Assembly: GCA_026000155.1 (NCBI GenBank)
Contig: BNYG01000007.1
Location: 1 to 64,000 of the forward strand
From: Bacteroidia bacterium
GTDB lineage: Bacteria; Bacteroidota; Bacteroidia; Bacteroidales; Azobacteroidaceae
DNA length: 64,000 bases
Direction: 5' to 3'
A program made the position numbers and the translations under genes. The first letter of the stretch is position 1; every line of letters begins with the position of its first letter. The notes under the pieces are model-generated. The model searched no databases. It was not told the DNA's origin and saw only the letters and a program-made list of their open reading frames with translations. Shown here in pieces: positions 27,291-55,835 of this stretch.

Positions 27291-29798
27291 TTAAAATGGT
27301 AATTTTTCTCCTTTGGGCACCAACGTAATTAATTCGCCTGATTTGGATGGCAAGCTTAACAATTTCCCGGAAATATTTTTAGACTTTTTCCCGTTGCGAT
27401 AAACGGTTAATTCCTCTGTGCCCCAAGGATTTTGAATCAAACAGGTACCGCCTTTCGTGGATTGTATTTCAACAAATTCAACTTTCCCTTTTACCATAGA
27501 GGCGCTTATCACAAAGGCATTGCGGGCGGCAAGCGTGAATTGGGCATCCCATTCTTTGGGCCAAGCAGGGAAAATATAATTGACAGGCTCTTTGCCGGGT
27601 GAAGGAGGGACACTTTGTAACAAAGCGGTACATACGGCTTGTGCCGCTAAGCCCAATCGCTCGCACTCGATAGCTCCCGGACCTTCCCGGAGCATTAAGC
27701 GGTTTCGTAACACACCCAATCCCGATTCACCGCTTCCGGGAATGTCGCAGTTGTCTTCTTTTGTAGAAGCTATCTGATTGGGAATAAGATATTTCACATC
27801 ATCAGCCAATCCAAGATTTGCTGCTGCAACAGGCGTTCTGGATAATACCCGCACAATTGTATTTTTATCTACATTCGGATTCCTTTTTTTATAAGCCTCC
27901 AGCGTAGCATTGAAGAATTGCGAATCTTTATTTCCAATATTGACGTAATCATAATACTCGGCAGAAATGGACGAATTAGGCAGCGGGGTTAAATTGTCGA
28001 GAATCTCTTTCCATACCGGACGGCGGTCGGCGTCTATTCCCAGAATTTCCGAAGCGCGAATGGCGATGGGAATCATGGCATTCATGGCCAAGAGTTCTTC
28101 CGGAGTGTCTTTTCCGCCCCAGCTGCTTTCCAGATTATTCACATAATGCAGATGGTATTTTCCGTCTGCTTCTTTATACAAGTTCGGGAAATTACAATAA
28201 AATTCCACAATGCCTTTGATGATTGGATAACCGGTTTCTTTCAGCCACTCTTTATCCGGATGATAGGCGTAATTCAACCAATATACGTATGCTATCTTTG
28301 CTGTTGACGACATGATATGCGAAGTCCAGGCAAAGGGACCGCCTGTTTCTCCGGTTTTCGATGAACGGCGCAGGAAAAGAAAATTCCACCGGCTGTTCAG
28401 GTCGTTTTTTGTTTCAGCAAAATCTGAAAAAACTTTGGAACGGTCGTCCCATTTTTTCTTGACCAGGTACAAGTCTCTCAATTCTTCAGCTATATTGCCG
28501 GGAAGTTCTTCCGGGCCGTTAAACCAAGTAGTTTCAGGTATCCAGATTCCCTTGCTTCCCCATTGTTGTTCGGCTGCTTTTGCATACGCATCATAATGCC
28601 GCATGAACGTTTTAAACACCGGTTCCAGCAATTCAGGCCGGTTTACCGGAGTCAATCCGTTGAAATACGTGCCCTGATTATTCCACCAATATTGAGAACC
28701 CCACATGGCTAAATCACCGTTGGTGTACCACAACATTCCCCTAAAGCCCGGCATATACTCCCCGCGTGAGCACGATGCCATGATATAGAGATAATAGGTG
28801 AAATTTTTCTCCACTTCATCCGCCACATTATCAGCACTATGCAGGCGTACAAATGCTTTGGGCCAGTAGTTCGCCCACCAAGCCCTGCTTTCTTGCAACA
28901 AGCCGGTGAAACCTTTCGGTTGTGCGGCTTCCAATTGTTCCAAAGCCAGTTGGGCAATATCTTCTTTCGGGTCGAAACTGGAAGCGCTGGCGGTTAATAT
29001 GGTGAAACTGCCTTTACCCGGCTCTGCCGACAGGCGTACGGTGGCTTCATTATAATAAACCGCTTTGCTTTTCCTGCCGGCAACACCGATGGCCACTGCG
29101 GAAGCATTGTAGTAGTCACCTTCTTTAAATTCTTGTATCAGAATGATTTTACCCTCTCTGATTTCAAAACGCGAAGTAGATGTATGTTCGCCCTGTTTGA
29201 TCTGAATGGCATGATTGCTGGTAAGCTCCCAGTTTTTGGCGTCGATAAAATTAATGGCATACCGCAACATCCGCAAATCAATATTGATGACGGAAGGATT
29301 AGCCCGCTGGTCGTCAATTTCCGTAGCAATTACATCCCCATCCGTCCAAGCCAGTACACGCGCCTTGAGTCCATTGCCGTTGACTGTTGTAAGCCCATCG
29401 TAAACCGATAAATGCTGGCTGAAAGCGCTTCCTGAGAAAACCTCATCGCCGTAGTCAACGGTGTTGATATCAATATATCCCAAGCCATTGGAATAGTTGG
29501 TATGCCCATCCTGAAAACTGTTGGTATTGTTCCCCATGGCAAATACATCCACCCGATTTATTTGATAGTGAATGGCATTGGGAGTTGTCCATACCAAGGT
29601 ACCCATACGGCCATTGCCAACAGGCATCCCTTCTTCGCTCCTGACAACCGGCGTATGGTATGTCAGGTCAGCTCTTGAAACTAAACTTTCAAAGTTCACT
29701 TTCATAGCGCTGTTGCTTTGTGTCTGCGCATGGATTCCAATGATACACAATTGAAACACAAGCAACAGGCACATTATTTTATCTATCCCGCTTTTCAT
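27291..29798 (-). CDS. Secreted DUF5703-like glycosidase-type protein
   Basis: An 835-residue exported protein with a signal peptide ending at IHA-Q. The N-terminal domain opens with EEGMPVGNGRMGTLVWTTPNAIHYQINRVDVFAMGNN, a beta-sandwich start shared by DUF5703 proteins and GH95-like enzymes. An (alpha/alpha)6 region (about 330-700) contains the WNNQGTYFNGLTPVNRPELLEPVFKTF helix, YLKETGYPIIKGIVEFYCNF and NLESSWGGKDTPEELLAMNAMIPIAIRASEILGID. The end, IFPAWPKEWDAQFTLAARNAFVISASM, is again the clan's closing motif. The reaction is unknown; exo-glycosidase is inferred. It lies between the GH3 gene and the other barrel protein. Confidence 0.7.
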   Translation of the reverse strand: MKSGIDKIMCLLLVFQLCIIGIHAQTQSNSAMKVNFESLVSRADLTYHTPVVRSEEGMPVGNGRMGTLVWTTPNAIHYQINRVDVFAMGNNTNSFQDGHTNYSNGLGYIDINTVDYGDEVFSGSAFSQHLSVYDGLTTVNGNGLKARVLAWTDGDVIATEIDDQRANPSVINIDLRMLRYAINFIDAKNWELTSNHAIQIKQGEHTSTSRFEIREGKIILIQEFKEGDYYNASAVAIGVAGRKSKAVYYNEATVRLSAEPGKGSFTILTASASSFDPKEDIAQLALEQLEAAQPKGFTGLLQESRAWWANYWPKAFVRLHSADNVADEVEKNFTYYLYIMASCSRGEYMPGFRGMLWYTNGDLAMWGSQYWWNNQGTYFNGLTPVNRPELLEPVFKTFMRHYDAYAKAAEQQWGSKGIWIPETTWFNGPEELPGNIAEELRDLYLVKKKWDDRSKVFSDFAETKNDLNSRWNFLFLRRSSKTGETGGPFAWTSHIMSSTAKIAYVYWLNYAYHPDKEWLKETGYPIIKGIVEFYCNFPNLYKEADGKYHLHYVNNLESSWGGKDTPEELLAMNAMIPIAIRASEILGIDADRRPVWKEILDNLTPLPNSSISAEYYDYVNIGNKDSQFFNATLEAYKKRNPNVDKNTIVRVLSRTPVAAANLGLADDVKYLIPNQIASTKEDNCDIPGSGESGLGVLRNRLMLREGPGAIECERLGLAAQAVCTALLQSVPPSPGKEPVNYIFPAWPKEWDAQFTLAARNAFVISASMVKGKVEFVEIQSTKGGTCLIQNPWGTEELTVYRNGKKSKNISGKLLSLPSKSGELITLVPKGEKLPF

Positions 29799-33773: not shown

Positions 33774-35924
33774 CTATCTGGGTTTGTTTTCTTTCCAGAT
33801 TTGTTTAATCGTTTCTTCCTGGGAAAAACCTACGGGGCATTTTTCGCTTTTTGTATTGGCAAAATACGAACGGAGCGTGGCAGGAGCAGTCGGTCCGGAA
33901 ATCATCCGGATGACACACATCTGCAAATGACCGTTGGGATCGGTTTTCTTCAGCCAATCGTTTGCATAGTGCAACCATTGATTGCGATAATCTTCTGTTT
34001 GAATGGCAAACCAGGTGATGTCGTCGTAGCCCCAGCAAAAATGGTCGTTCAGATTCGCTACCCCCATCTTGTCTCTACTTACCCCGAAATTGTCGAATTC
34101 AACCAGATAAGGCATGCTTTCGGCTTTCCAACCGCTGGGCGAAATGGCTCCCTTACTTCTCAGATAGAGACCGTCGCTGTTGCCCACTTCCAAGATACCC
34201 TCTAACGGTTTGTCAACCACTTCCTTGATGCGGAGGGGGAATGAATTGAAATCCAATAAACTGATACCGTCTTTAATAAAACCGCCGGAAGGGGTATGTG
34301 CATCCAAAAGCACATAATGGCGGCGTGCATTTTTCTGAGCATAATCGCGTATTTTTTTCAAAATTTCCGCATAATGCGTTTTGTCGGGGTCATCTCTTCC
34401 GATAATGCCTACCTGACCGAGGTGAAAGGCTTCGCAACCTATGTCGATATAAGATTTGGCGAGAAAATAAAACCAATATTTTGTTTCGAGGTTATTCACA
34501 ATGGGTGAACCGCCTCCGCGACTGGCCATCAACGTTTCGCCTCCGGCTACTCTTTTTATCATATCTTCCACCCTGAAATTCCTGTCTTCCACCGGCTGAT
34601 TAAAGGCTCTGAACACCCAAGCCGGAATTTTCAAATTATTGACATCGGGACTTACATGCTCGAACAAACAGCCTTGGAAAATAATTTCCGGGTCGTATTT
34701 GTGCATCCTTTCAATCAGGTTTTTGGCGTATGCTAAAAATTCGGGGTCGCCGAGCTTGCTTTCTTCACTCCAACGGTAAATGGCTCGTCCGATAAATTTG
34801 GCTCCGATGTTTTTCAACATGCGAATATCGTCTTCCCGATAAGGAAATTCATAGTTTTCAGGTGTACCCGGTACAAGAAAATAACCGGCTGTAACAGCCC
34901 TGTCTAAATAATTTTCCAAAACATCTCTCGAAATAGATCCGTCGAAAGCATATTTGGTGGGAGGAAGGGTTTGATTTACCAATTGGATGCTTCCATCCGG
35001 ATTGTAGTACAGTTTGTCCACGCAGACAGACCTTGTCCAGTCGTTGAACGCGCCGTTGTCGGCAGATAAGCGGCTGTTGTGATAAAACGCATACCATTGT
35101 CCCTTGTATTCGACAATCGAACCGTGATTGGTATAGCTGTCGGTCGGATTCATGTAAACGCCTTTGTTTACCCAGGGACCGTAAATGCTGTTGCTGGTAG
35201 CATACCGCATCCGGTTGTCGCCTTTAACGCCTTCGCGGTCGTTGCCTTCATCGTGATTGTCGGAATACGACAGGTAGTAAATGCCGTTGCGTTTGTGAAT
35301 CCACGAAGCTTCGTGAAAATCGCCCAGTCCCTCTACGGTTTGCAGTTCGCCGTCGATTTCCATCATATTGTCTTTCAGTTTACCCATCATGCAACGGGCG
35401 CCGCCGCCGTAGAACAGGTAAGCCTGCCCATCGTCGTCAACGAAAACACAAGGGTCAATCATGGGCGGAATATCGGGAATGTATCCCTTCACGGTAAAGT
35501 CCCTGTCGGGATATTTGCTGGTGGCAACACCGATTTTCCAGTTTCTGCCCGAAGGCTCTTCGCTCGGATGCGGAAAATAGAAATAATAAGTGCCGTTCTT
35601 GTAAGCGCAGTCCGGCGCCCACATCAGTTTGGCGTCGTTTCTCAAGGGTTTGCCCCAAGGTACATCTGCGGCGCGAAGGATTTCACCGTGGTCTTTCCAG
35701 TGAATCATGTCGTCGGTAGAGAACACATGATACTCGTCCATCAAATCGCATCCGCGAGGAGGTACAATATCGTGCGAAGCATAAACATACAAACGACCGT
35801 CTTGCCACACGTGCGCCGACGGATCGGCGGTGTACATGTGGGTGATGAACGGATTTTGCTGGGCGAAAAGCCCTACCCATACAATTGCAAGCAACAGTAT
35901 TAAAACGTTTCTTTTAGAATTCAT
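33774..35924 (-). CDS. GH43-type glycosidase fused to an unrecognised C-terminal domain
   Basis: A 716-residue exported protein, starting at MNSKRNVLILLLAIVWVGLFAQ, a good signal peptide. An upstream in-frame ATG at 35984 would place 20 foreign residues before it, and the relic at 36979-37074 aligns with the MNSKRN start. Residues about 25-325 are a GH43 five-blade propeller with base Asp34 (YTADPSAHVWQDG), pKa-tuning Asp156 (PPMIDPCVFVDDDG) and acid Glu204 (DFHEASWIHKRNGIYYLSYSD). From about 340 to the end is a separate domain beginning DVLENYLDRAVTAGYFLVPG, with TIM-barrel-like alternation (KFIGRAIYRWSEES, EIIFQGCLFEHVS, ASRGGGSPIVNN, HYVLLDAHTPSGG) that I do not recognise. Arabinofuranosidase or xylosidase activity is expected for the first part. 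Confidence 0.8.
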   Translation of the reverse strand: MNSKRNVLILLLAIVWVGLFAQQNPFITHMYTADPSAHVWQDGRLYVYASHDIVPPRGCDLMDEYHVFSTDDMIHWKDHGEILRAADVPWGKPLRNDAKLMWAPDCAYKNGTYYFYFPHPSEEPSGRNWKIGVATSKYPDRDFTVKGYIPDIPPMIDPCVFVDDDGQAYLFYGGGARCMMGKLKDNMMEIDGELQTVEGLGDFHEASWIHKRNGIYYLSYSDNHDEGNDREGVKGDNRMRYATSNSIYGPWVNKGVYMNPTDSYTNHGSIVEYKGQWYAFYHNSRLSADNGAFNDWTRSVCVDKLYYNPDGSIQLVNQTLPPTKYAFDGSISRDVLENYLDRAVTAGYFLVPGTPENYEFPYREDDIRMLKNIGAKFIGRAIYRWSEESKLGDPEFLAYAKNLIERMHKYDPEIIFQGCLFEHVSPDVNNLKIPAWVFRAFNQPVEDRNFRVEDMIKRVAGGETLMASRGGGSPIVNNLETKYWFYFLAKSYIDIGCEAFHLGQVGIIGRDDPDKTHYAEILKKIRDYAQKNARRHYVLLDAHTPSGGFIKDGISLLDFNSFPLRIKEVVDKPLEGILEVGNSDGLYLRSKGAISPSGWKAESMPYLVEFDNFGVSRDKMGVANLNDHFCWGYDDITWFAIQTEDYRNQWLHYANDWLKKTDPNGHLQMCVIRMISGPTAPATLRSYFANTKSEKCPVGFSQEETIKQIWKENKPR

Positions 35925-36262
35925 AACTCTTTTCACTTTAATATTAGATTTGATAACAGATATTTTTAGAATGTAATTTTTCATGAAATTGATTTATTAA
36001 TTTTCGGTGCTATTTTCAAGTCCGACCTTTCAGGTCTTCTGTGGCAGTGAGTCTGATTCCGCAGGTCGTTGACCTACGGTTATGAAAATCCAAGCTTTCA
36101 GGTTTTCAATGCAAACAGAACTTCATCGTTCTGAAAATAAAGCCGATAAATTGTCTGAAAGACAATATTTTCATAACCGCGGGTCAACGACCTGCGGCTA
36201 TTAAACTATGAATATAAAGAATTTACAGGTAGAAAAAATAGCACTGCAAAAAAAGATTTAGC
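35925..36262. other. Gene-free stretch with long inverted repeat
   Basis: About 338 bases without a supported gene apart from a doubtful upstream extension of the GH43 fusion reading frame. It contains the inverted repeat at 36059-36197. Confidence 0.6.
36059..36197. repeat. Long inverted repeat with palindromic arms
   Basis: A 31-base arm at 36059-36089 (starting CCGCAGGTCGTTGACC) pairs with 36167-36197 at 29 of 31 positions. Each arm is itself nearly palindromic (CCGcAGGTCgttGACCTaCGG). The 77 bases between contain smaller repeats such as TTGTCTGAAAGACAA. It sits between the GH43 fusion and the preceding gene of the operon and could fold in the transcript. Confidence 0.7.
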
Positions 36263-43549: not shown

Positions 43550-46084
43550 TTGATGAGAATACTTCCGGTTTTTTTAATCTATTTTCTTTCTCTGATGACT
43601 GTATCCGGTCAGGAAGTTCAATATGGTTTGAAATTTAACTCGTATGAACTGGAAAAAGAGAAGCGTACCGGTTTGAATTTAACACCGGAGAAGCCCTTTT
43701 CTTTTCCGGACGGATTTATCCTGTCTTTTGATGTCAATTTTAATTCCAAAACGATTCATCCTTTTGGATCTGTCTGCCGGATTTTGAATGAAGACGGCAA
43801 TCTGATTGATATTGTGTTGAACGGCTCCAACGATGCGAGTCAAACGCTGATTTCTCTCATTTCGCCTTCTTATGGAATCTATTTTGATCAACCGTTCGAC
43901 AGTACAAGCATTACGTACGACCGGTTCATTCCGGTTATCCTGCAAGTGGATGCCAAAAAGAATACCGTCCGGTTTGCTGCCGGCGGAAAGGAATTTGTCA
44001 AGCAAGAACTTGACTTGTCTCATTTAGGAAAAATCAAGATTCTGTTCGGAAAAAATAATGTACCCGGTATTCAAACGACGGATGTACCCTCCTTTCAATT
44101 GAAAGATATTAAAATCAATACGGTTTCCGGGCATCCGCTTTATCATTGGGAGCTTTCCATGCATTCCGAATCCGGCGTATATGATAAGCTGAAATCGCGT
44201 TTTGCTTCTTGTGAAAATCCGGTGTGGATATTGGATAATCACTTATCCTGGGTGAAGCGGGCAACGTTTACCACCCGCATTAATCCGCAGCTTAGTTATA
44301 ATCCGGATAAGAATGAGATAGGCATTTTCGATCAGGATAAATTGATTCATTTCGATCTCAATGGCTATACCTTTACCGAAGAAGCAGTGGATAATCCCTT
44401 GATTTTTCGTTATTCCAATCTGAACAATTTAATCTATAATTCCGTAACCAAAGCGTATAATTGCTATATTTTCAACCGGAATAATGAACGGGAAATCGTA
44501 TCTTACGATACGCTTAACAATCGTTGGAATAAAGATCCGAAAACCCGGATGTATCCGGGTAATTGGCATCACAGCAATCTTTTCTCCAATCGGGACAGTT
44601 GTTTGTATCTGTTTGGCGGATACGAATACCATCAATATAAAAATGACATCGACCGCTACAGTTATGCCCGGCAGAAGTGGGAAAGCCTTCCGTTGACAGG
44701 CGACCGGATAGCGCCTCGTTACCTGAGCGGGTTGGGGGAAACCGAAAACGGGAATATACTTTTGTTTGGCGGATACGGGAGTGAAGCCGGTACCCAGAAA
44801 ATATCGCCTCATTGCTTTTACGACCTGTATCAAATCAATGTAAAATCCATGGAAATCAAGAAGATATGGGAAATGAAACCGCCTTTGGTCGATTTTGTGG
44901 TGGCGGGTTCCCTGATTCCCGATGCGAGACAAAAATCATTTTATGCCTTGAGTTTTCCTATCCAGCAGGTTCATACGAATTTATCCTTGATCAAGGTTTC
45001 GATGGACAAGCCGGAATATCAGGTCGTAGCGGATGCTATTCCTTTCACGTTTGAAGATACAAAAACTTCGGTTGATTTATTTATCGACAAAACACTGAAT
45101 CAATTGATAGCGACTATTATCAATACGCAAAGCGATAATTCCTGTCTGGTTTCCATCTACACCTTATCCAATCCGCCGCTTTTAGACAGTGAAGTGCATC
45201 AAACAGAGAAAAAAACATCTTTCTTACCGGTAATACTTGGCATGATAGGATTATGCATGGCAGCCGGACTTTTTGTCTTTATTTTTATTAAAAAGAAGAA
45301 AGCCGGCAAACCGGCGAAGCAAGCATTATTCGTGCCGGTTCCGGAAAAAACGAAACAATCCATTTTCCTTTTTGGCGAATTTCAACTCTTTGATAGAGAA
45401 GGAAAAGATATCACCAAGAATTTCTCACCCATGTTGAAACAACTTTTTATCCTTATTCTCCTTTATACATCGAAGTGCGGAAAAGGGATTTCGACCCTTA
45501 AAATGAGAGAGTTGTTGTGGTATGATAAATCCGATGAAAGCGCCAAAAACAATCAGGGCGTATTGATCAATAAACTCCGGCATACCTTGGGTTGTATCGG
45601 CGACATCCGGATAAAAACTCAAAATATGTTCTGGAGTATTGAGTTGGATGATCAGGTCTATTGTGATTATTTAGAGGCATTGTCTTTGATGAAAAAACTG
45701 GAGCAAGACACAAAAAATCCTCGTACAGAAGATCTTCAAACCCTCCTTTCGATTGTTTCCAAAGGTGAATTTTTACCCAATATACAAATTGAATGGATGG
45801 ATGCTTTTAAGGCTGAATTTTCAAATAACCTGATTGATTTGTTATTGGATTTATATAACCAATCCGGCGGCAAGGTATCGCCTGTGCTTGCCATTCTGCT
45901 TGCCGATGCCATTTTTGTACACGATTCGCTGAGTGAAGAAGCGCTAAACATCAAGTGCCGCAACCTGGTAAAAATAGGAAAAAACGAATCCGCCAAAAAA
46001 GTGTTTACCACTTTTTGTAAAGAATACGAATTATTGCTGGGAGACCCTTATCAAGGTTCGTTCCGGAATTTATTGAAAGACTAA
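43550..46084 (+). CDS. Membrane kelch/SARP-like transcription regulator (copy 2)
   Basis: An 844-residue paralogue of the protein at 8927, with the same order of parts: signal peptide (ending near VSG-Q), a concanavalin-like domain (about 22-205), kelch-type blades (LYLFGGYEYHQYKND and ILLFGGYGSEAGTQ), one membrane helix (about 560-580, VILGMIGLCMAAGLFVFIFI) with a Lys-rich cytoplasmic flank, and an OmpR/SARP-like winged helix (IFLFGEFQLFDREGKDIT, KGISTLKMRELLWYD, INKLRHTLG). The helical tail ends LLGDPYQGSFRNLLKD, against LLGEPYQGSIKNFIGQ in copy 1. It is divergent from susC and upstream of the uronate genes, so control of the surrounding utilisation genes is likely but not shown. Confidence 0.82.
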   Translation: MMRILPVFLIYFLSLMTVSGQEVQYGLKFNSYELEKEKRTGLNLTPEKPFSFPDGFILSFDVNFNSKTIHPFGSVCRILNEDGNLIDIVLNGSNDASQTLISLISPSYGIYFDQPFDSTSITYDRFIPVILQVDAKKNTVRFAAGGKEFVKQELDLSHLGKIKILFGKNNVPGIQTTDVPSFQLKDIKINTVSGHPLYHWELSMHSESGVYDKLKSRFASCENPVWILDNHLSWVKRATFTTRINPQLSYNPDKNEIGIFDQDKLIHFDLNGYTFTEEAVDNPLIFRYSNLNNLIYNSVTKAYNCYIFNRNNEREIVSYDTLNNRWNKDPKTRMYPGNWHHSNLFSNRDSCLYLFGGYEYHQYKNDIDRYSYARQKWESLPLTGDRIAPRYLSGLGETENGNILLFGGYGSEAGTQKISPHCFYDLYQINVKSMEIKKIWEMKPPLVDFVVAGSLIPDARQKSFYALSFPIQQVHTNLSLIKVSMDKPEYQVVADAIPFTFEDTKTSVDLFIDKTLNQLIATIINTQSDNSCLVSIYTLSNPPLLDSEVHQTEKKTSFLPVILGMIGLCMAAGLFVFIFIKKKKAGKPAKQALFVPVPEKTKQSIFLFGEFQLFDREGKDITKNFSPMLKQLFILILLYTSKCGKGISTLKMRELLWYDKSDESAKNNQGVLINKLRHTLGCIGDIRIKTQNMFWSIELDDQVYCDYLEALSLMKKLEQDTKNPRTEDLQTLLSIVSKGEFLPNIQIEWMDAFKAEFSNNLIDLLLDLYNQSGGKVSPVLAILLADAIFVHDSLSEEALNIKCRNLVKIGKNESAKKVFTTFCKEYELLLGDPYQGSFRNLLKD

Positions 46085-46164: not shown

Positions 46165-46962
46165 TTAAGACGGTTGCTTCCCTATATAGGCCAAAATCCC
46201 TCCATCGACATACAATACATGTCCGTTTACAAAATCAGAAGCGGAGGAAGCCAAAAAGACTGCCGGTCCGGCTAAATCTTCCGGCGTTCCCCATCGTGCA
46301 GCCGGTGTTTTGGCAAGAATGAAAGCATCGAAAGGATTCCTTGACCCATCGGCTTGCCGTTCGCGTAAAGGAGCGGTCTGCGGTGTGGCGATATAACCCG
46401 GACCAATGCCGTTGCACTGGATATTGTATTCGCCGTATTCGGATGCGATGTTGCGGGTCAGCATTTTCAAACCGCCTTTGGCGGCAGCGTACGCCGATAC
46501 GGTTTCGCGACCCAATTCGCTCATCATCGAACAGATATTGATAATCTTTCCGCCTCCTTTTTTAATCATATTGGGAATAACCGCTTTGGAAACGATGAAA
46601 GGCGCATTCAAATCCACATCAATCACTTGCCGAAATTCGCTTGCCGACATTTCTATCATGGGAATCCGCTTGATGATGCCGGCATTATTGACCAAAATAT
46701 CAATCACGCCCGCTTCCGTTTCTATTTGTTTGACCATCGCATTCACTTGCTCCTCGTCTGTGACATCACAAACATAGCCTATGGCGGCAATACCAGCGGC
46801 TTTGTATGCCGCCAAACCTTTATCCACAAATTCTTGTTTCAAATCGTTAAACACAATTTTTGCTCCGGCATTCGCCAAAGCGGAAGCAATGGCAAAGCCG
46901 ATACCATAAGACGCCCCGGTGACCAAAGCTATTTTTCCCTGTAATGAAAATGGATTATCCAT
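46165..46962 (-). CDS. kduD: KduD-like SDR dehydrogenase
   Basis: A 265-residue classical short-chain dehydrogenase with NAD-binding TGASYGIG (15-22), NNAG (92-95), Ser145 and the catalytic Tyr158-x3-Lys162. The sequence matches proteins annotated as gluconate 5-dehydrogenase or 2-dehydro-3-deoxy-D-gluconate 5-dehydrogenase. Its neighbours KduI and DUF4861 favour the KduD reaction: reduction of 2,5-diketo-3-deoxygluconate to 2-keto-3-deoxygluconate. It is the last of a minus-strand run KduI, DUF4861, KduD with gaps of 2 and 12 bases. The downstream KDG kinase and aldolase are not in the window. Confidence 0.82.
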   Translation of the reverse strand: MDNPFSLQGKIALVTGASYGIGFAIASALANAGAKIVFNDLKQEFVDKGLAAYKAAGIAAIGYVCDVTDEEQVNAMVKQIETEAGVIDILVNNAGIIKRIPMIEMSASEFRQVIDVDLNAPFIVSKAVIPNMIKKGGGKIINICSMMSELGRETVSAYAAAKGGLKMLTRNIASEYGEYNIQCNGIGPGYIATPQTAPLRERQADGSRNPFDAFILAKTPAARWGTPEDLAGPAVFLASSASDFVNGHVLYVDGGILAYIGKQPS

Positions 46963-46974
46963 ATTGATTGTTTT

Positions 46975-48096
46975 TTAATAATTGATAATGAAAGGCTGTT
47001 GCAAAGCCTCCGAAAAATGTTGTATGTATTGTTGAAAATCCTCCAGCGAGACAAAGCCGAATTTCGACCATCCGTATCCGGTATAATAAGTCACCGGCGC
47101 ATTGGGTTGATAAGTGGTGATTGCCAATACGTGCGAAGCGGCGTCGTTATAGACATCAATTGTGCTGCTTTCAAATTTTTCCGGAAACACAAGCGCCAGA
47201 TACACTTGGTCAACCACTTGACTGAAAGGCTCCACGTAAATAATGAAATCGTTTTTAGGCGATACGATGATGGAATCGTTTCCGCGTTTTACCAATCCGG
47301 CGGCAACCGGTGTTTGTGCTGTAAATCCATATTCCTGAATCACTTTTGTGAGTTGTGAACCTGCGTCAATAGAAAATGTACGTGTTTCGGAATACGTTTT
47401 GCCTGCCACATCCACGTCTTTATACGTAAGTTTGAAAGTCGTGCGCAGCGGGCCATTTTCAAATACTTCCTGCAACACATAATTTTCATTCAGCCACAAT
47501 TTATTGTCTGTGTATGGAGCCATGGCTCCGGCGCCCAACGTGCGACCTACTTTATAATCATCCTGTCCTTCGCCGTTATCATTGTGGTAAGAAGCAATGC
47601 CTGCCAAGTCTTTTTCATACCATTTGTCGATGATTAAGTTGGATGTGCGTTTGTACCACACATCCAATCCGTTGCTTGGGCCGTCGATGGGCACCAAGGC
47701 TTGTCCGTAAATTCGGAAAGCCACCCGGTCGTTTTCCCAGGCAAAATCATCTTTCCGTTCGGGAATCAACCGGCCGAAAGTTTGAGCCTGAAAGGTCTGC
47801 GATTTGCCCGGTTTGATATTGAATGTTCCGGTTTCTTTGGCTTTCAAATTGGCTTGAAAGATGAGTTTTCCATCAAAGGTGAGCTGCGAGGGCACAATTT
47901 CTCCTTTGGAGTCAGTCACTACAAATACGTCATTCTTTGTCAACGTAATTTTAGCTTTTATATCTTCAACGGGTATTTCTACCATTTCGGACAAGCGGTC
48001 GAAATCACTTGGATTTTCGACTGTTACTTTTATTTCTTTTGTTGTACAGGAAATAAAGCATGTTATCAGGAGGAAAAATACAAATAGCTTTTTCAT
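46975..48096 (-). CDS. DUF4861 lipoprotein
   Basis: A 373-residue exported lipoprotein (lipobox FISC, Cys17). It matches the DUF4861 family, frequent beside GH88/GH105 and kduI in pectin-like and uronate loci. Visible parts are a beta-sandwich start (KVTVENPSDFDRLSEMVEIPVEDI), the FAWENDRVAFRIYGQAL segment, the YHNDNGEGQDDYKVGRTLGAGAMAPY motif and a final YYTGYGWSKFGF. It resembles beta-sandwich lyase or epimerase folds, but no reaction is established as far as I know. Its position between KduI and KduD links it to unsaturated uronic acid processing. Confidence 0.8.
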   Translation of the reverse strand: MKKLFVFFLLITCFISCTTKEIKVTVENPSDFDRLSEMVEIPVEDIKAKITLTKNDVFVVTDSKGEIVPSQLTFDGKLIFQANLKAKETGTFNIKPGKSQTFQAQTFGRLIPERKDDFAWENDRVAFRIYGQALVPIDGPSNGLDVWYKRTSNLIIDKWYEKDLAGIASYHNDNGEGQDDYKVGRTLGAGAMAPYTDNKLWLNENYVLQEVFENGPLRTTFKLTYKDVDVAGKTYSETRTFSIDAGSQLTKVIQEYGFTAQTPVAAGLVKRGNDSIIVSPKNDFIIYVEPFSQVVDQVYLALVFPEKFESSTIDVYNDAASHVLAITTYQPNAPVTYYTGYGWSKFGFVSLEDFQQYIQHFSEALQQPFIINY

Positions 48097-48098
48097 TT

Positions 48099-48941
48099 TT
48101 ATCTTAATTTATCTGCGGTGAAAGTATCCATATCGTCATAATCCAAATTTTCGCCGCACATGGCCCAAATGAATGTGTAGTTGCTTGTTCCGGCTGCCGA
48201 ATGAATTGACCATGAGGGAGAAATCACCGCCTGCTCGTTGTCCATGAAAATATGACGGGTTTCCTGTGGTTGTCCCATAAAATGGCAAACCGCTTGTTGT
48301 GCGGGAATTTTGAAATAAAAATAGGCTTCCATCCGGCGTGAATGGGTGTGAGGAGGCATGGTATTCCAAACGCTGCCTTCCTTGATTTCCGTCAAACCCA
48401 TTTGCAACTGGCAACAGGGCACAATTTCGCTGAGAATAATCTGATTCAGCGTACGCTCGTTGGAGGTTGCTTTTGCTCCCAATTCGCGTGTACGGCGCAT
48501 GGCGCTTGTGATAAGTGCGCTTGGATAGGCTGTGTGTGCCGGGGAAGAAGCAAAATAAAACTTGGCCGGTTGGGCGCTGTCTTTGCTTTTGAAACTGATT
48601 TCTTTCGAGCCGCGACCCACATACACCGCATCTTTGTAAGCCAATGCATACTCCACTCCATCCACCGAAATAATTCCTTCGTTTTCGATACAGATAATGC
48701 CCAATTCGCGTCTTTCGCAAAAATACGCCGAACGGATCAAATCGACCGTTTCCAATTTCAGGGATTCATGAACAGGAAATGCACCGCCGATAATCAACCG
48801 GTCGTTGTGCGTATAAGTCATTAATACCGAATCTGCTTCAAAAAGTTTTTCGACTAAAAATTCTTTCCGCAATTGTGCCGTATCATACTTTTTTACATCG
48901 TCGGGATGTGTTCCCCAACGTTCTTCAATGGTTGTTTGCAT
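48099..48941 (-). CDS. kduI: 5-dehydro-4-deoxy-D-glucuronate isomerase
   Basis: A 280-residue cupin isomerase converting 5-keto-4-deoxyuronate (from spontaneous opening of the unsaturated uronate) to 2,5-diketo-3-deoxygluconate. The zinc-binding histidine/glutamate motif PPHTHSRRMEAYFYF is complete. The N-terminal ERWGTHPDDVKKYDTAQLRKEFLVE and the C-terminal ISPSWSIHSAAGTSNYTFIWAMCGENLDYDDMD are typical. The length equals E. coli KduI. It is upstream of DUF4861 by two bases and forms the first gene of the short uronate operon. Confidence 0.96.
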   Translation of the reverse strand: MQTTIEERWGTHPDDVKKYDTAQLRKEFLVEKLFEADSVLMTYTHNDRLIIGGAFPVHESLKLETVDLIRSAYFCERRELGIICIENEGIISVDGVEYALAYKDAVYVGRGSKEISFKSKDSAQPAKFYFASSPAHTAYPSALITSAMRRTRELGAKATSNERTLNQIILSEIVPCCQLQMGLTEIKEGSVWNTMPPHTHSRRMEAYFYFKIPAQQAVCHFMGQPQETRHIFMDNEQAVISPSWSIHSAAGTSNYTFIWAMCGENLDYDDMDTFTADKLR

Positions 48942-50336: not shown

Positions 50337-50429
50337 ATGAGCAATACTTGGAAATCCTTTTTCAGTAACTTGCGCTTCGGCGTTAAAGTATCTGTTATTG
50401 CCATTTTAGGAGAAAAACCGCTTATTTGA
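50337..50429 (+). pseudogene. Truncated 30-codon reading frame
   Basis: An ATG-started frame of 30 codons (MSNTWKSFFSNLRFGVKVSVIAIL, then a frame-ending tail) after the DUF4221-like gene, cut off where it runs into the 3' end of the GH88 gene. The start looks like the amphipathic and hydrophobic N-terminus of a membrane protein. It may be the remnant of a gene lost when this stretch was inserted. Confidence 0.3.
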
Positions 50430-51615
50430 GCAATTCCCGAAATCTTAGTAATGCTTCGATATAGTAATAATCGGCATAAGTAAGCGGTACATCTATTTCC
50501 GAATGGTTGGGCTTGTGTCCTACCGAATGTTTGAGAATAAAATTGCCGTTGCTTCCTTTTTCTGCAAAATATTCCGGGGACGAAAGGGTGCGTATCTGCG
50601 TTTCGGCCACATCCAAATATCTTTTGGCATCGGAGGCATCTACATATCCGCTCAGTTCGATAAGCGCCGAAGCAATGACTGCGCCCGCCGAAGCATCGCG
50701 CAAGGCATCGGGTATAGCGGGGTCATTGAAATCCCAATACGGAATTTTATCAGCCGGAAGATTGGGATGGTTCAGGATAAAGCCGGCAATGTGCTTGGCT
50801 TGTTCCAGGTATTTCAAATCTTGGGTTTCGCGATACATAAGGGTATATCCGTAGAGTCCCCATGCCTGTCCGCGCGCCCAAGCCGATTCGTCGGCATAGC
50901 CCTGATGAGTGTTTTTCTTTTCCGCCTGTCCGGTAATCGTATCATACGAAACCACATGGTAGGTACTGTAATCGGGACGGAAATGGTTTTCGAGCGTTTT
51001 GTCGGCATGTGTGATGCTGATGTCCCGGTATTTGGGGTCGCCCGAAACTTTGGTTGCCCAGAACAGCAATTCCAGATTCATCATATTGTCGATAATCACC
51101 GGATATTGCCATTGGTCTTTGTGGGAATCCCACGATTTGATGGCTCCGGTCACCGGATTGAAACGGCTGCTCAGCGATTCTGCTCCGGTGAGCAAAATGC
51201 TTTGATAAGCGGTGTCGCCGGTAAGCCGGAGTCCGTTGCCGAAAGAGCAATACAACATGAATCCGAGGTCGTGCGTTCCCTTATTGTATTTTTCTTTTTC
51301 GATACGGGCGGTATAATTTTTGGCATACGCCAACAGGGCGGGGTCGTTGCTGTACTGGTACAAATACCATAAGGTGCCCGGCACAAAACCACTTACCCAT
51401 CCGCCGGAAGAAGTAGTACGTAATTTTCCTTCGGCATCCATGCTTACCGGTAATTTATCTGGTTGATCAATCAGCGACTCGGCCATCCCTGCATATTGTT
51501 GCAGGGAACGGTCGAGCCGGTCGGTAATCAGATTTTCCATGGACTCTTGCTTCGGCGCGCATGCAATGAACAATACGCTTGTAATGAAACAGATATAAAT
51601 AGATTTTATTTTCAT
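50422..51615 (-). CDS. GH88 unsaturated glucuronyl hydrolase
   Basis: A 397-residue lipoprotein (FIAC, Cys19) of glycoside hydrolase family 88, which removes the 4,5-unsaturated uronic acid left at oligosaccharide ends by polysaccharide lyases, by a hydration mechanism. The two catalytic aspartates are seen at Asp116 (THDLGFM) and Asp175 (PVIDNMMNLELLFWA). The (alpha/alpha)6 barrel signature YADESAWARGQAWGLYGYTLMY is intact. It is 11 bases downstream of the GH92-lyase fusion gene, whose lyase domain would make its substrate, and its product feeds KduI. Confidence 0.94.
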   Translation of the reverse strand: MKIKSIYICFITSVLFIACAPKQESMENLITDRLDRSLQQYAGMAESLIDQPDKLPVSMDAEGKLRTTSSGGWVSGFVPGTLWYLYQYSNDPALLAYAKNYTARIEKEKYNKGTHDLGFMLYCSFGNGLRLTGDTAYQSILLTGAESLSSRFNPVTGAIKSWDSHKDQWQYPVIIDNMMNLELLFWATKVSGDPKYRDISITHADKTLENHFRPDYSTYHVVSYDTITGQAEKKNTHQGYADESAWARGQAWGLYGYTLMYRETQDLKYLEQAKHIAGFILNHPNLPADKIPYWDFNDPAIPDALRDASAGAVIASALIELSGYVDASDAKRYLDVAETQIRTLSSPEYFAEKGSNGNFILKHSVGHKPNHSEIDVPLTYADYYYIEALLRFRELLK

Positions 51616-51626
51616 TTCAGAATTTT

Positions 51627-54600
51627 TTAATTGTGTTTATTGGCAATAATGGTATTTCCATTGACAAGCGCATCTTCCGCTTTACCAATATAAATACCAT
51701 ACTCGCCATTGTTTTGAGATAAATTATCTTTGACTGTTATTTTGCGTGAGCCATCCATTTCAGCATCGAAAGAAATTCCGTTCGCATCATTTCCTTCCGT
51801 CAGGTTATTGATGACTTGAATATTTTCGCTTTCGGTACACCGGATGCCTGACAATTGGTTACGTGCCGCTTCATTACCTGTGATAATGACATTCCGGGCA
51901 AATGTCAGGTTGATGCCGTTGCCCCAAGGGGAGGTATCAAACCGGCTGTCTTTTACTTCGCAATTATCGACATGCGACAACAGAAGGTTGTGATGAAAAC
52001 CGGCGCCCGGCACCACGCTGGCGCCGTTGTCGCTAAAGTCGCAACGAATAATCTTGACGCCGGATGCTCCCCAAACAGAAACGCCGCTGCGTGTACAGTT
52101 TTGTACGGTCAGGTTTTCAAAACGAATGTTTTTCATTTGTCCGTCTGTCAGCCCAAAGAACAGGATGCCTTCACGAGCCGGCGCATTCATGTACGAACGG
52201 TTTCTCCGGTCGTGGTTGGGGTCGTTGTTGGTGACTGTATTGGTGGCTCCCTCGAGCAACAAATCCCGGATCACTACATCGTGCATATCCCTTTCGGCAT
52301 TGGCGAGCGTTTGCCCGCCTGCGCGGGGCGACAAGAAAAGGATGGATTTTTTTCCCTGTCCGGCGAGTGTAAGACCGCTCTTGAGCATCAGGGTTTTGGA
52401 TAGCGTATGAACGCCTTCCGTCAGCACTATCCATTTGCCGGTATTGGCATACTTGTCGATGACTTCCTGAATCGAATCGCCAGGGTGAACAAATACAGCA
52501 TCTTGAGGCGGTGTGGCGGTGGCATTATCCAATGCGCCCGTTTGCGAAGGCAACAAAGCCCTTTTTTCCGGAACAAGCGATTGAGTGCCGGAGGCATTTG
52601 CTGTATTTGCTCTCAGAGAGGTTAGCACACCGATAGAAGATTTAGCACGAGTTTTGGTATCAATCACTTGATGGATATAAGGAAGTTCGATGCCTTTTTC
52701 CGACAAATAATGATTGTAAATAGATTCATAGATGTCTCTGAATGGTTCTTTATCGCGTTGAGATAAAACGCCGAAAACCGGGATGTCGCCTCCCAACAGG
52801 AACTTGGCCGTATATTCAAAACCGTTGGCCAAGCGGTCGTTGGCCACACTGTAAAAATCCAAGCCTTGTGTCCATGCCGTTTGAGCCGCTTTGGCAAATT
52901 CGCCGATACCCAATTGCACGTGTCCCCAGTCGCGGGTAGTTTCCTGACATTGTCCGGTAGGATACAGGTATTTGGTGATGCCCGAATTGCCTATTCCGCG
53001 GTAATACCGGTCAACGGCGCGTTCAAACATTTCGTGGTCGTCGGTATAAATAGCGATGCAAAGAATGGTATTGATGATGGACGCATCCCAATTGCCGTTG
53101 GCTTCGGTAAAGAAATCTTTGATGGTAGGATAGAATACCGACAACACCAATTGCTTGAATTGCTTTTGGTCTTTTTCCGCCCAATGGGAATGGGTATGTT
53201 TGATAATTTCTGCCGCGTTCAAAAAGTTGGGACTGAACAACCCCACATTTAATTTGGCATTGTTTTCATCAAAATTCCACAACCGGTACGACCAGGCATT
53301 CAGTATTTCAATGGCTTTGCGGGCGTAAGTTTCCTCTTCGGTAATATACCACATCAAAGCGTGGTTGTAGGCTGCGTTGGCGCTCCGCTCGTATTCGCGT
53401 CCGCCCATGCTGTTGGCTCCATAAGGGCCAACGGAAACCGACGTTACCGGCGACGGCTCAAAGTCGAGGGAAGTTTGTTTTTTCAGATTTTCGAAAGCCG
53501 TTTTCCAAGGCTCCTTGCCTGCCGATACCATTTGTTTCATATAATCCAAATCTTCGCGGCTTTGCGCCATTCCCGGATGACGGAAAGATGCAGTTGATTG
53601 AGTCGATTTTCCAAAATTATAATTGGGTTGTTTTCCCATCCGGATAACCATTTTTCCACCTTGTGTAATATCGCTGTGTTTCAAAGTGCTGGAATTATGC
53701 TGTTTTCCATTCAACTCTATGCTTTGGATATAGATATTGGTGGGGGAATTATCAATCGCTTCTATCACAAATTGTTTTCCGTCAGCGAGTTGTATAGTGG
53801 CTTTGTCAAACAGGGGACTTCCGATGATGTACTCGCCGGAAGCCGTAAATACAGGATAAAAGCCCAAAGACGACAAGACATACCATCCCGACATCTGTCC
53901 GCAATCTTCATTTCCGATAATTCCGTCCGGTTGGTCGGTATAAAATTCTTTCAGGATTTTGCGAGTCAATCGAGCCGTTTTCCATTGTTGCCCGACATAC
54001 GCATACAAATACGTAATGTGATGACTGGGTTCGTTGCCATGCGCATATTGCCCGATGCAACCGGTCAAATCCACCAGCACATCCGGGTCGGACTTGTCAT
54101 TTTCGAGCGAGAAGAAAGTATCCAAGCGGTCGATAAAGGCTTCTTTGCCTCCCAACATTTCAACCAAACCGCTCACATCTTGCGGCGCCAGCCAGAGGTA
54201 TTGCCAAGCATTGCCTTCGGCATAATCGGTTGCCCAAGGGCGTACGGATTTGAGCGGGTCAAAAACCGGATTCCAAGAGCCGTCGGCCATTTTTCCATGG
54301 ATAAATCCCACTTCTTTATCGTAATAGAGTTTGTAATTTTGTGCGCGTTTCCAAAAATAGTCGTAATCTTCCGTTTTGCCCAGACTTTTGGCCATCATGG
54401 CGATACTGGCATCCCCAACCGCATATTCAAGCGCGGTAGAAACCGGACGATTTTTCATTACATCGGAAGGAATCGGTTTCAAATCTCTTACATAATCTAA
54501 TCCGCGAATGTCACTCATGGCGGTTGCTTTCATTGCCTGATAAGCTCTTTCGGCATCAAACCCTTTACAACCTTTCAAATAGGCTTCGGCAATCACCTGA

Positions 54601-55835
54601 AAACTGTTGATGCCCACCATGGTGCCGGTTTCGTATCCGCGCAAATGCCAAATCGGCAAGGCGCCGGTTTGGTCGAAAACGGCCAGCATACTGTTGACGA
54701 AATCCCCGACTCGGTCGGGATTCGTAATGGTGAATACCGGATGAGCGGCGCGATACGTGTCCCACAAAGAAAAAATTGTATAGTTGTTGAAAGGCGCTTT
54801 TTTATACACTTTCCAATCTGCGCCCATGTAATCGCCGTTGTGGTCGTTGAACAACGACGGATGGATCATCAGGTGGTACATCGAGGTATAAAATATTCGT
54901 TTATCGGCTTCGTTTTTTGTTTCGACTTCAATTTTGGACAGTTCTTTTTCCCATTTTTCTTCGGCTTGTTTTTTGATTTTTTCAAAATTCCAATCCGGTA
55001 TTTCAGCTTTAATGTTTGCCAAGGCATTGTCGGCGCTGACAGGAGATATGCCCACTTTCAACGATACGGCGCCCGGCGATTGGACAAAACTAATCAAACC
55101 TTTGATGGAAACGCCTTTTCCCTTTTTTCCGGAAACCGGTTTGGAGTCGTCGTAAACGACAAAATCGCTCAATGGAACGGACGATTGGATGGCAAAAAAT
55201 ACTTGCTGTTTTTTCGCCCAACCGGAGGATGAACGGTAGCCTTTGAGCGTATATTTATCCACTTGTTCGATATACGATTCGGTTGCCTTGTCGTTGATTC
55301 CTTCATCCAAGTCGATAATGATGCGGGCGTTATTTCCCGAAGGAAAAGTATACCGGTGAAAACCGGCGCGTTCGGTAGCCGTCAATTCCACTTCCACACC
55401 GTAATCATCTAATTTTACGGCGTAATATCCCGGTTGCGCCTGTTCGTTTTGATGCGAAAAGAGCGAAGCATATCCGCTGAATCGTTTGGTTTCAACACCT
55501 TTATTCAATTGAACATCACCCATATAGGGCATAATCAGAATGTCGCCTAAATCACCGATTCCGGTACCGCTCAGATGCAGTTGCGGAAAACCAATAATGA
55601 CACTGTCCCTGTAATTGTATCCGGAGCACCAATCCCAACCTTTAAAGAAATTGGATGGTCCTACCTGAACAGCTCCGAAAGGAACGCTGGCGCCTACAAA
55701 CACATGTCCGTGCCCTCCGGAGCCGATAAACGGATCAACATAACCGGTGTAATGCTGGGCGTTGGCAATCTTGACGCTGATTGCTAAGAATAGCATCAAA
55801 AAAGACTTGAAGAATACTAAATTTTTAGTTATCAT
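51627..55835 (-). CDS. GH92 - alginate-lyase-like - beta-helix fusion enzyme
   Basis: A 1402-residue exported protein with a signal peptide ending at ANA-Q. Residues about 28-745 are a full GH92 exo-alpha-mannosidase: YVDPFIGSGGHGHVFVGASVPFGAVQVGP, the calcium-dependent core, HLRGYETGTMVG and GNEDCGQMSGWYVLSSLGFYPV (about 641-660). Residues about 748-1065 match the alginate lyase superfamily: FRHPGMAQSREDLDYMKQMV, NGNWDASIINTILCIAIY (about 911) and QETTRDWGHVQLGIGEFAKAAQ. From about 1110 to the end is a right-handed parallel beta-helix. GH92 enzymes are usually about 750 residues, so two further modules have been joined. The reading frame is continuous. It heads the minus-strand run with GH88. 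Confidence 0.85.
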   Translation of the reverse strand: MITKNLVFFKSFLMLFLAISVKIANAQHYTGYVDPFIGSGGHGHVFVGASVPFGAVQVGPSNFFKGWDWCSGYNYRDSVIIGFPQLHLSGTGIGDLGDILIMPYMGDVQLNKGVETKRFSGYASLFSHQNEQAQPGYYAVKLDDYGVEVELTATERAGFHRYTFPSGNNARIIIDLDEGINDKATESYIEQVDKYTLKGYRSSSGWAKKQQVFFAIQSSVPLSDFVVYDDSKPVSGKKGKGVSIKGLISFVQSPGAVSLKVGISPVSADNALANIKAEIPDWNFEKIKKQAEEKWEKELSKIEVETKNEADKRIFYTSMYHLMIHPSLFNDHNGDYMGADWKVYKKAPFNNYTIFSLWDTYRAAHPVFTITNPDRVGDFVNSMLAVFDQTGALPIWHLRGYETGTMVGINSFQVIAEAYLKGCKGFDAERAYQAMKATAMSDIRGLDYVRDLKPIPSDVMKNRPVSTALEYAVGDASIAMMAKSLGKTEDYDYFWKRAQNYKLYYDKEVGFIHGKMADGSWNPVFDPLKSVRPWATDYAEGNAWQYLWLAPQDVSGLVEMLGGKEAFIDRLDTFFSLENDKSDPDVLVDLTGCIGQYAHGNEPSHHITYLYAYVGQQWKTARLTRKILKEFYTDQPDGIIGNEDCGQMSGWYVLSSLGFYPVFTASGEYIIGSPLFDKATIQLADGKQFVIEAIDNSPTNIYIQSIELNGKQHNSSTLKHSDITQGGKMVIRMGKQPNYNFGKSTQSTASFRHPGMAQSREDLDYMKQMVSAGKEPWKTAFENLKKQTSLDFEPSPVTSVSVGPYGANSMGGREYERSANAAYNHALMWYITEEETYARKAIEILNAWSYRLWNFDENNAKLNVGLFSPNFLNAAEIIKHTHSHWAEKDQKQFKQLVLSVFYPTIKDFFTEANGNWDASIINTILCIAIYTDDHEMFERAVDRYYRGIGNSGITKYLYPTGQCQETTRDWGHVQLGIGEFAKAAQTAWTQGLDFYSVANDRLANGFEYTAKFLLGGDIPVFGVLSQRDKEPFRDIYESIYNHYLSEKGIELPYIHQVIDTKTRAKSSIGVLTSLRANTANASGTQSLVPEKRALLPSQTGALDNATATPPQDAVFVHPGDSIQEVIDKYANTGKWIVLTEGVHTLSKTLMLKSGLTLAGQGKKSILFLSPRAGGQTLANAERDMHDVVIRDLLLEGATNTVTNNDPNHDRRNRSYMNAPAREGILFFGLTDGQMKNIRFENLTVQNCTRSGVSVWGASGVKIIRCDFSDNGASVVPGAGFHHNLLLSHVDNCEVKDSRFDTSPWGNGINLTFARNVIITGNEAARNQLSGIRCTESENIQVINNLTEGNDANGISFDAEMDGSRKITVKDNLSQNNGEYGIYIGKAEDALVNGNTIIANKHN

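Follow-up and report, generated by a model that had tools for sequence, protein, structure and literature searches.

The stretch of DNA analyzed here (the window) comprises 64,000 nucleotides, positions 1 to 64,000 of the 71,574-bp contig BNYG01000007.1, from a Bacteroidia bacterium of the family Azobacteroidaceae that is represented by a metagenome-assembled genome (MAG; GCA_026000155.1; 2.85 Mb, 282 contigs, 87.9% complete). On its minus strand (51627–55835) lies one open reading frame (ORF) that begins with ATG and encodes 1402 amino acids with zero internal stops. It comprises a signal peptide, a glycoside hydrolase of family GH92, a polysaccharide lyase (PL)-like toroid of family PF05426 and a β-helix. 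Residues 1–26 (55758–55835) appear by eye to form a Sec-type signal peptide, with a hydrophobic stretch and the motif ANA-Q and without a lipobox Cys; the enzyme is probably periplasmic. The GH92 N-terminal domain occupies residues 32–264 (55044–55742; PF17678, 275 bits) and the catalytic domain residues 270–735 (53631–55028; PF07971, 583 bits, with PDB alignments), while TIGR01180 spans residues 3–739 with 673 bits against a cut-off of 249.55. The GH92/lyase junction was placed at residues ~740–751 (53583–53618) from the ends and starts of homology matches, since the GH92 PDB matches stop at 736–742 and the lyase match begins at ~748. The (α/α) toroid, residues 748–1085 (52581–53594), is delimited by PF05426, by conservation and by its PL5/PL38 fold, the Pfam Alginate_lyase match covering residues 811–1014 (80 bits, cut-off 22.2). 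The gap between domain matches defines a linker, residues 1086–1109 (52509–52580), which is followed by a right-handed β-helix with a C5-epimerase fold, residues 1110–1402 (51630–52508). The helix match begins at ~1110, and the Pfam Beta_helix match covers 1236–1396 (54.6 bits, cut-off 25.9). The fused ORF is the sole PF05426 match found in its MAG. The original prediction, made from the window alone, had described an uninterrupted frame that joins a complete GH92 to a lyase relative without a second signal peptide. All of this was confirmed: both GH92 Pfam domains and TIGR01180 exceed their cut-offs, no second signal peptide was seen at the junction on inspection by eye, and the second part scores above the PF05426 cut-off and matches PL5 and PL38 in fold. 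We predict from the sequence that the ORF is a genuine multi-domain enzyme of a polysaccharide utilization locus (PUL).

The GH92 part is predicted to be a complete, two-domain member of the α-mannosidase family. Its E540 (EGNAWQ) and D644 (GNEDCGQ) align with the catalytic positions of solved GH92 chains, which we take to be the catalytic acid Glu (E533) and base Asp (D642/D644) of BT3990. The D642 position is Asn in the fused GH92, as it is in 7zgm and 6f8z. The fused ORF thus resembles the solved GH92 α-mannosidases (7zgm, 6f8z, 6f91, 2wvx) in having both domains and in keeping the catalytic Glu/Asp positions, whereas the best stretch in the 14 matched chains is limited to its GH92 part.

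The toroid is assigned to PF05426 by both its curated score and its (α/α) toroid fold, and resembles PL5 and PL38 in fold comparison. Over 23 alignment rows, drawn for toroid and helix alike from Bacteroidota and several other phyla, the residues N913, G914, N915, W916, Q962, E965, R968, D969 and H972 are invariant, giving the signature NGNW ... GQ..E..RD..H. When 18 remote PF05426 relatives were aligned to the toroid profile, NGNW was present in 12 and RD..H in 17; P0103 is gapped at the RD..H position, and the second toroid of P0017 has neither motif. Toroids without the helix also occur among the remote lyase-only matches within P0079–P0189, joined to sulfatase, GH29, GH97, GH28, GH88 and GDSL or other esterase domains, and in proteins named Streptomyces, Arthrobacter and Paenibacillus, as a wide lyase-like family.

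The signature of PL5/PL38 alginate lyases, that is, the Asn-His of NNHG and a catalytic Tyr after the RT motif, was not found in the toroid. It is present in six PF05426 proteins from related loci, which carry NNHG and an invariant Tyr and whose profile matches BoPL38 (E 5e-97). The BoPL38 chains show NNHG, and the entries Y298F (9fi5) and H297N identify the invariant Tyr as Tyr298. In the comparison of the toroid profile with this NNHG set (probability 95.6), H972 sits at the Tyr298 column and the NNHG His is unpaired; a weak HMMER match to 3nfv (E 0.061, 16 bits) gives the same Tyr column. Relative to PL38 (BoPL38 8bdq; 3nfv) and PL5 (A1-III), the toroid therefore differs by the near absence of a sequence match, as that 3nfv score illustrates, by the missing NNHG His and by a His in place of Tyr298. 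According to the accessible part of one report (PMC12088678), a His is common to the PL5, PL15, PL17, PL38 and PL39 alginate lyases, and that site holds Asn in PL35 enzymes, with the exception of GAGase III. If this shared His equals the NNHG His, as we infer, its loss makes an alginate lyase less likely and disfavors alginate as the substrate. The toroid is likelier a lyase for another uronate, and the alginate-lyase label of the original prediction is not supported as to substrate.

The helix has its own set of residues that are invariant over the 23 rows (D1205-P-N1207, R1213, R1221, H1282-N1283, E1322, R1325-N1326, E1347 and N1349). Fold comparison places it with the A-module β-helix of mannuronan C5-epimerases. 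The AlgE motif YGFDPHE, presumably the catalytic motif of those enzymes, is absent from all 23 helix rows. Compared with the C5-epimerases AlgE4, AlgE6 and the epimerase/lyase 8ja4, the helix thus has other invariant residues in place of YGFDPHE, and it comes after a lyase-like toroid.

A homologue search with residues 745–1402 as query, in which 7,994 candidates were scored, returned 114 homologous clusters, some of whose entries are partial. Lyase and helix occur together in 77 of them, and the whole GH92-lyase-helix architecture in 46. The combination, first thought to be rare, is thus not rare in its niche. P0001 is likewise 1402 amino acids long and is 98% identical over residues 745–1402, and lies on a different contig of 13,141 bp; some of the 46 clusters sit on contigs of 89–417 kb. 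That the window belongs to a MAG of 282 contigs is the one point in favor of an assembly or binning artefact uniting two genes. P0001 and the 46 clusters of identical architecture rule out an assembly join and leave such an artefact a negligible chance. Source names among the homologues include Bacteroidia bacterium FACS189474, Candidatus Symbiothrix, Candidatus Ordinivivax streblomastigis, Dysgonamonadaceae and Prevotellaceae, several of which we take to be termite-gut or protist-associated; the host of the window is itself probably an insect-gut bacterium. At least 8 of 38 genomes of the same genus have matches of at least 58% identity that extend into the lyase-helix part (G000, G007, G008, G010, G013, G027, G028 and G036 among those listed). 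Two close relatives of the fused gene, L026 7291–11160 (in G007) and L062 5685–9555, are split over two to three overlapping frames, through either pseudogene formation or sequencing error.

Reference genomes were scanned for the lyase-helix module, and the best 80 of 166 loci were kept. Lyase and helix are in one frame at 79 of these, 7 with GH92 (L030–L033, L041, L042 and L045) and 72 without it; at the remaining locus, L062, the module lies in two frames. The 72 comprise 61 stand-alone proteins of at most 800 amino acids, the cut L046, and 10 proteins of more than 1200 amino acids that are of the heparinase II/III type of P0058, as confirmed by Pfam. Record titles of the reference loci name Bacteroidota, Verrucomicrobia and relatives, Acidobacteria and Latescibacterota. 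Because lyase and helix already form one gene elsewhere, the fusion in the window joined GH92 to a pre-existing two-domain protein. Four loci, L035 and L038 (both Chitinophaga), L044 (Mucilaginibacter) and L034 (Sediminibacterium), have a stand-alone lyase-helix gene that is immediately preceded by a GH92 gene of the same strand, with 10–38 nt between the GH92 stop and the lyase-helix start as computed from ORF ends without the stop codon and from longest-ORF starts. Against the GH92 of the window, these genes score 1116 (L035), 1115 (L038), 849 (L044, partial) and 538 bits (L034, partial); in the same program the best paralogue of its own genome reaches 640 bits, and two other GH92s of the genus 823 and 808. 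An own-genome paralogue was rejected as the source of the GH92, its 640 bits at best standing against 1099–1307 for the GH92s of L035, L036, L038 and L047, which are separate genes, complete or nearly so. One supported clade of the GH92 tree unites 40 of 43 fused domains with 6 of 15 separate genes. Bacteroides sp. 51 (L036) carries GH92 and lyase-helix as two genes 5 kb apart; because both nest among fused relatives, this state suggests a secondary fission. The proposed origin by fusion of two neighboring PUL genes is borne out by the orthologous pairs 10–38 nt apart in four other loci, and the ORF of the window unites, in frame, a GH92 gene with a formerly neighboring, old, two-domain toroid-helix gene.

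GH92 is one of several partners. The partner pieces of other fusions were compared with 682 ORFs from the window, L022–L024 and L030–L109. The C-terminal piece of P0011 matches a GH99-like gene in L036 (63%), L035 (52%), L038 (51%) and L047 (44%), which reaches 21.8 bits for PF16317, below the cut-off of 33. A separate gene without Pfam assignment matches the N-terminal piece of P0021/P0025 (74–75% in L036; 48–50% in L104 and L050). The second toroid at the C-terminus of P0014 is matched by a gene in L048 (67%) and in L075 and L088 (56–57%), and the heparinase II/III at the C-terminus of P0116 by the gene that comes next in L103 (76%). The N-terminal GH43 that precedes GH92-lyase-helix in P0033, P0045 and P0051 is 57–62% identical to a separate GH43 gene of the window (33774–35984, minus strand). 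In L036, the GH92, GH99-like, P0021-type and lyase-helix genes lie on one strand within 9.4 kb. No close separate neighbor was found among the 682 ORFs for P0016 (esterase), P0072 (deacetylase) or the C-terminal esterases, and the GH2 of P0029 reached 27% only. As a control, 13 partner pieces of remote lyase-only fusions were compared with the same neighbor set: 4 had no match and 9 had best matches of 22–55%. The five partners called as neighbors have best identities of 62–76% with further matches down to 44%, so that their band touches that of the control. We conclude that the lyase-helix module is a recurrent fusion partner of enzymes from its own gene neighborhood.

The trees point to repeated union with GH92 itself. 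The GH92 of P0013 clusters with a paralogue from a different GH92 lineage (support 97 and 92 in two trees) while its module lies within the main group, and P0013, which rests on one 6,458-bp contig, may represent a GH92 swap inside an already fused gene. P0076/P0077 have a GH92 of a third lineage in the plain GH92-lyase-helix architecture, and their modules form with P0115 a remote branch of the module tree. Main-group GH92-fused modules are interspersed with modules that have other partners or none. A single origin of all GH92 fusions was rejected on the GH92 tree by the approximately unbiased (AU) test, with p 5.2e-6 (12 rows) and 1.1e-6 (10 rows, without P0076/P0077), a test that gave a warning of long branches meeting; a single clade of GH92-fused modules was rejected with p 2.7e-45 (12 rows) and 9.1e-10 (9 main-group rows). 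The groups tested were named after the first tree had been seen, the trees were LG+G4 "quick" trees, and the subsets were chosen by hand (28 of 66 rows, and 35 of 152 rows plus P0115). By the module tree, GH92 and the module appear to have been united at least twice; the GH92 tree indicates that three GH92 lineages are involved, one of them possibly through a swap.

Downstream of the fused ORF, on the same strand, a gene of family GH88, the family of unsaturated glucuronyl hydrolases, begins after 11 bp (50422–51615; PF07470, 39.8 bits, cut-off 26.6; no NCBIfam match). Further minus-strand genes encode KduI, a 5-dehydro-4-deoxy-D-glucuronate isomerase (48099–48941; NF002091, 421.6 bits, cut-off 250), a DUF4861 protein (46975–48096; PF16153) and a short-chain dehydrogenase/reductase (SDR; 46165–46962), and a match to 2-keto-3-deoxy-6-phosphogluconate aldolase lies elsewhere in the host genome. 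The SDR passes as gluconate 5-dehydrogenase (NF005488, 508.7 against 369) and fails as KduD (TIGR01832, 241.1 against 338.85). A product pathway through GH88, KduI and KduD had been proposed; the route for unsaturated uronate is indeed represented nearby by the GH88-family gene and KduI, but the assignment of KduD did not stand. The wider window contains SusC/SusD, GH43, GH3 and two GH95-like genes. The latter encode adjoining minus-strand proteins (27291–29798 and 24588–27278) with partial GH95 catalytic matches of 43.9 and 50.3 bits, the former with a DUF5703 N-terminal domain. Two large plus-strand proteins (43550–46084 and 8927–11491) look alike by eye, with Kelch-type repeats, a hydrophobic stretch and a C-terminal part like a winged-helix regulator; the Pfam scan covers the first, which has relatives at 8 loci, the window included and two being the same contig (L023, L031), and which is perhaps the membrane regulator of the PUL.

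At the fused locus of G010, the fused gene is surrounded by a GH88-family gene (294 bits), GH2, GH29, GH3, a SASA esterase and a second GH92. At the remoter stand-alone loci, the companions of the module among the best 80 are a DUF4466 cluster (35 loci), heparinase II/III (18), PL8 (11) and another PF05426 lyase (6), each cluster having been identified through a Pfam check of one member. The order SusC, SusD, DUF4466, lyase-helix recurs in L075, L084, L088, L103 and others, frequently accompanied by heparinase II/III and PL8, as a multi-lyase PUL. Uronate appears to be the common theme of the module loci, with α-mannose coming in at those that have GH92. The simplest guess at the substrate is a glycan of uronate and mannose; xanthan- or acetan-like side chains, plant or diatom glucuronomannan and fungal glucuronoxylomannan are candidate sources of a GlcA-Man motif, and the evidence favors none of them. 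In the putative glucuronomannan PULs of marine flavobacteria (PMC9723552), GH92 genes are likewise read as acting on a mannose-glucuronate backbone; those PULs differ in that the accessible text names GH92 and sulfatases, does not contain GH88 and mentions a lyase once.

The sequence shows the domains and their completeness, the fusion of former neighbors, its recurrence, the conserved polar residues in all three parts and the pathway genes in the window. We propose on this basis a PUL enzyme that arose by fusion of GH92 with a neighboring toroid-helix gene and would act on a glycan with successive hexuronate and α-mannose residues. The toroid, perhaps helped by the helix, would open a uronate linkage through β-elimination; the GH88-family enzyme would then take off the unsaturated uronate, GH92 would cleave the mannose thereby exposed, and KduI, a dehydrogenase and the 2-keto-3-deoxygluconate route would consume the uronate. 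Catalysis by the toroid and helix, the order of steps, the substrate and a benefit of tethering are presumed in this scheme. Several points weigh against it. The structure model of GH92 plus toroid is poor (predicted local distance difference test score 68, predicted template modeling score 0.57), too poor to show a contact between the domains. We know of no activity for any member of the toroid-helix module. The canonical lyase His is absent from the toroid and the Tyr is replaced by His, which could mean other chemistry or none; and because the N-terminal "Alginate_lyase" module of another lyase, RiPL8, is described as seemingly functionless in the accessible part of its report (PMC13027841), the toroid might be inactive. 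The match of the window's GH88-family gene is weak at 39.8 bits. In a blastp comparison among the 682 ORFs, relatives of the window's KduI were found at 0 of 83 other loci, those of its SDR and DUF4861 protein at one locus each and those of its GH88 gene at four, where the 83 loci include three second copies of a contig and the GH88 of G010 is too remote for that search. Since the pathway genes are hardly found at related loci, we lowered the probability of this mechanism from 0.6 to about 0.55.

Other explanations concern the role of the toroid and helix. They could be a uronan C5-epimerase and lyase pair, the helix epimerizing uronate so that the toroid can cut. We consider this rather unlikely, because the single stretches that match epimerases are weak (best 5.8e-4, AlgE6) and scattered over the repeats, because YGFDPHE is missing, and because lyases, hydrolases and tailspikes share that fold. 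Alternatively, both may have ceased to be catalytic and bind a uronate-rich glycan, holding GH92 on it in the manner of a carbohydrate-binding module. The RiPL8 precedent and the loss of the canonical NNHG His and of Tyr298 of BoPL38 would fit such a role, but the many polar residues kept invariant in toroid and helix over all 23 rows, and the fact that the module is mostly stand-alone in loci with SusC/SusD and other lyases, make it improbable in our view.

It is also conceivable that the pieces were fused by drift without a joint substrate, the fused proteins being tolerated read-through products. The apparent secondary split in L036, the relatives in two or three frames in L026 and L062, and the failure of the main-group fused modules to form one clade, with lineages having other partners or none among them (the AU p of 9.1e-10), are what drift might leave behind; the presence, in one and the same order, of three GH92 lineages on the N-terminal side of the module, and several other partners that are neighbors elsewhere, render it quite doubtful. 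A bolder proposal, to which we give less than an even chance, is that the toroid-helix is an undescribed two-site uronate enzyme family, with a lyase that has His for the PL38 Tyr beside an epimerase-fold site, and a hub for collapsing PUL operons. Different lineages would independently have added GH92, GH43, GH99-like, GH2 and heparinase II/III enzymes, another lyase-like toroid, esterases and a deacetylase to it, GH92 by convergent capture of three lineages, so that stepwise depolymerization would take place on single chains. The multicatalytic carbohydrate esterases (CE) CE6-CE1 and CE1-CE1 of Bacteroides ovatus and Dysgonomonas mossii (PMC8040265, in its accessible part) likewise have several catalytic domains per secreted Bacteroidota PUL chain for one polysaccharide; they combine esterases, whereas in the fused ORF a lyase-like domain and an epimerase-fold domain accompany a glycoside hydrolase, and the alternative partners are numerous.

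In the accessible parts of the open-licence literature, no fusion of GH92 with a lyase was named and no description of the lyase-helix module was found; one analysis omitted polysaccharide lyases, as its accessible part states (PMC11481507). Multi-enzyme PUL proteins are already known, and here one module is visible as a separate gene, as an operon neighbor and fused to many different partners. The module thus offers a natural experiment on the reasons for fusion in glycan pathways and draws attention to a conserved lyase-like family whose active-site signature is unusual, and its fusions predict which enzyme activities serve one glycan.

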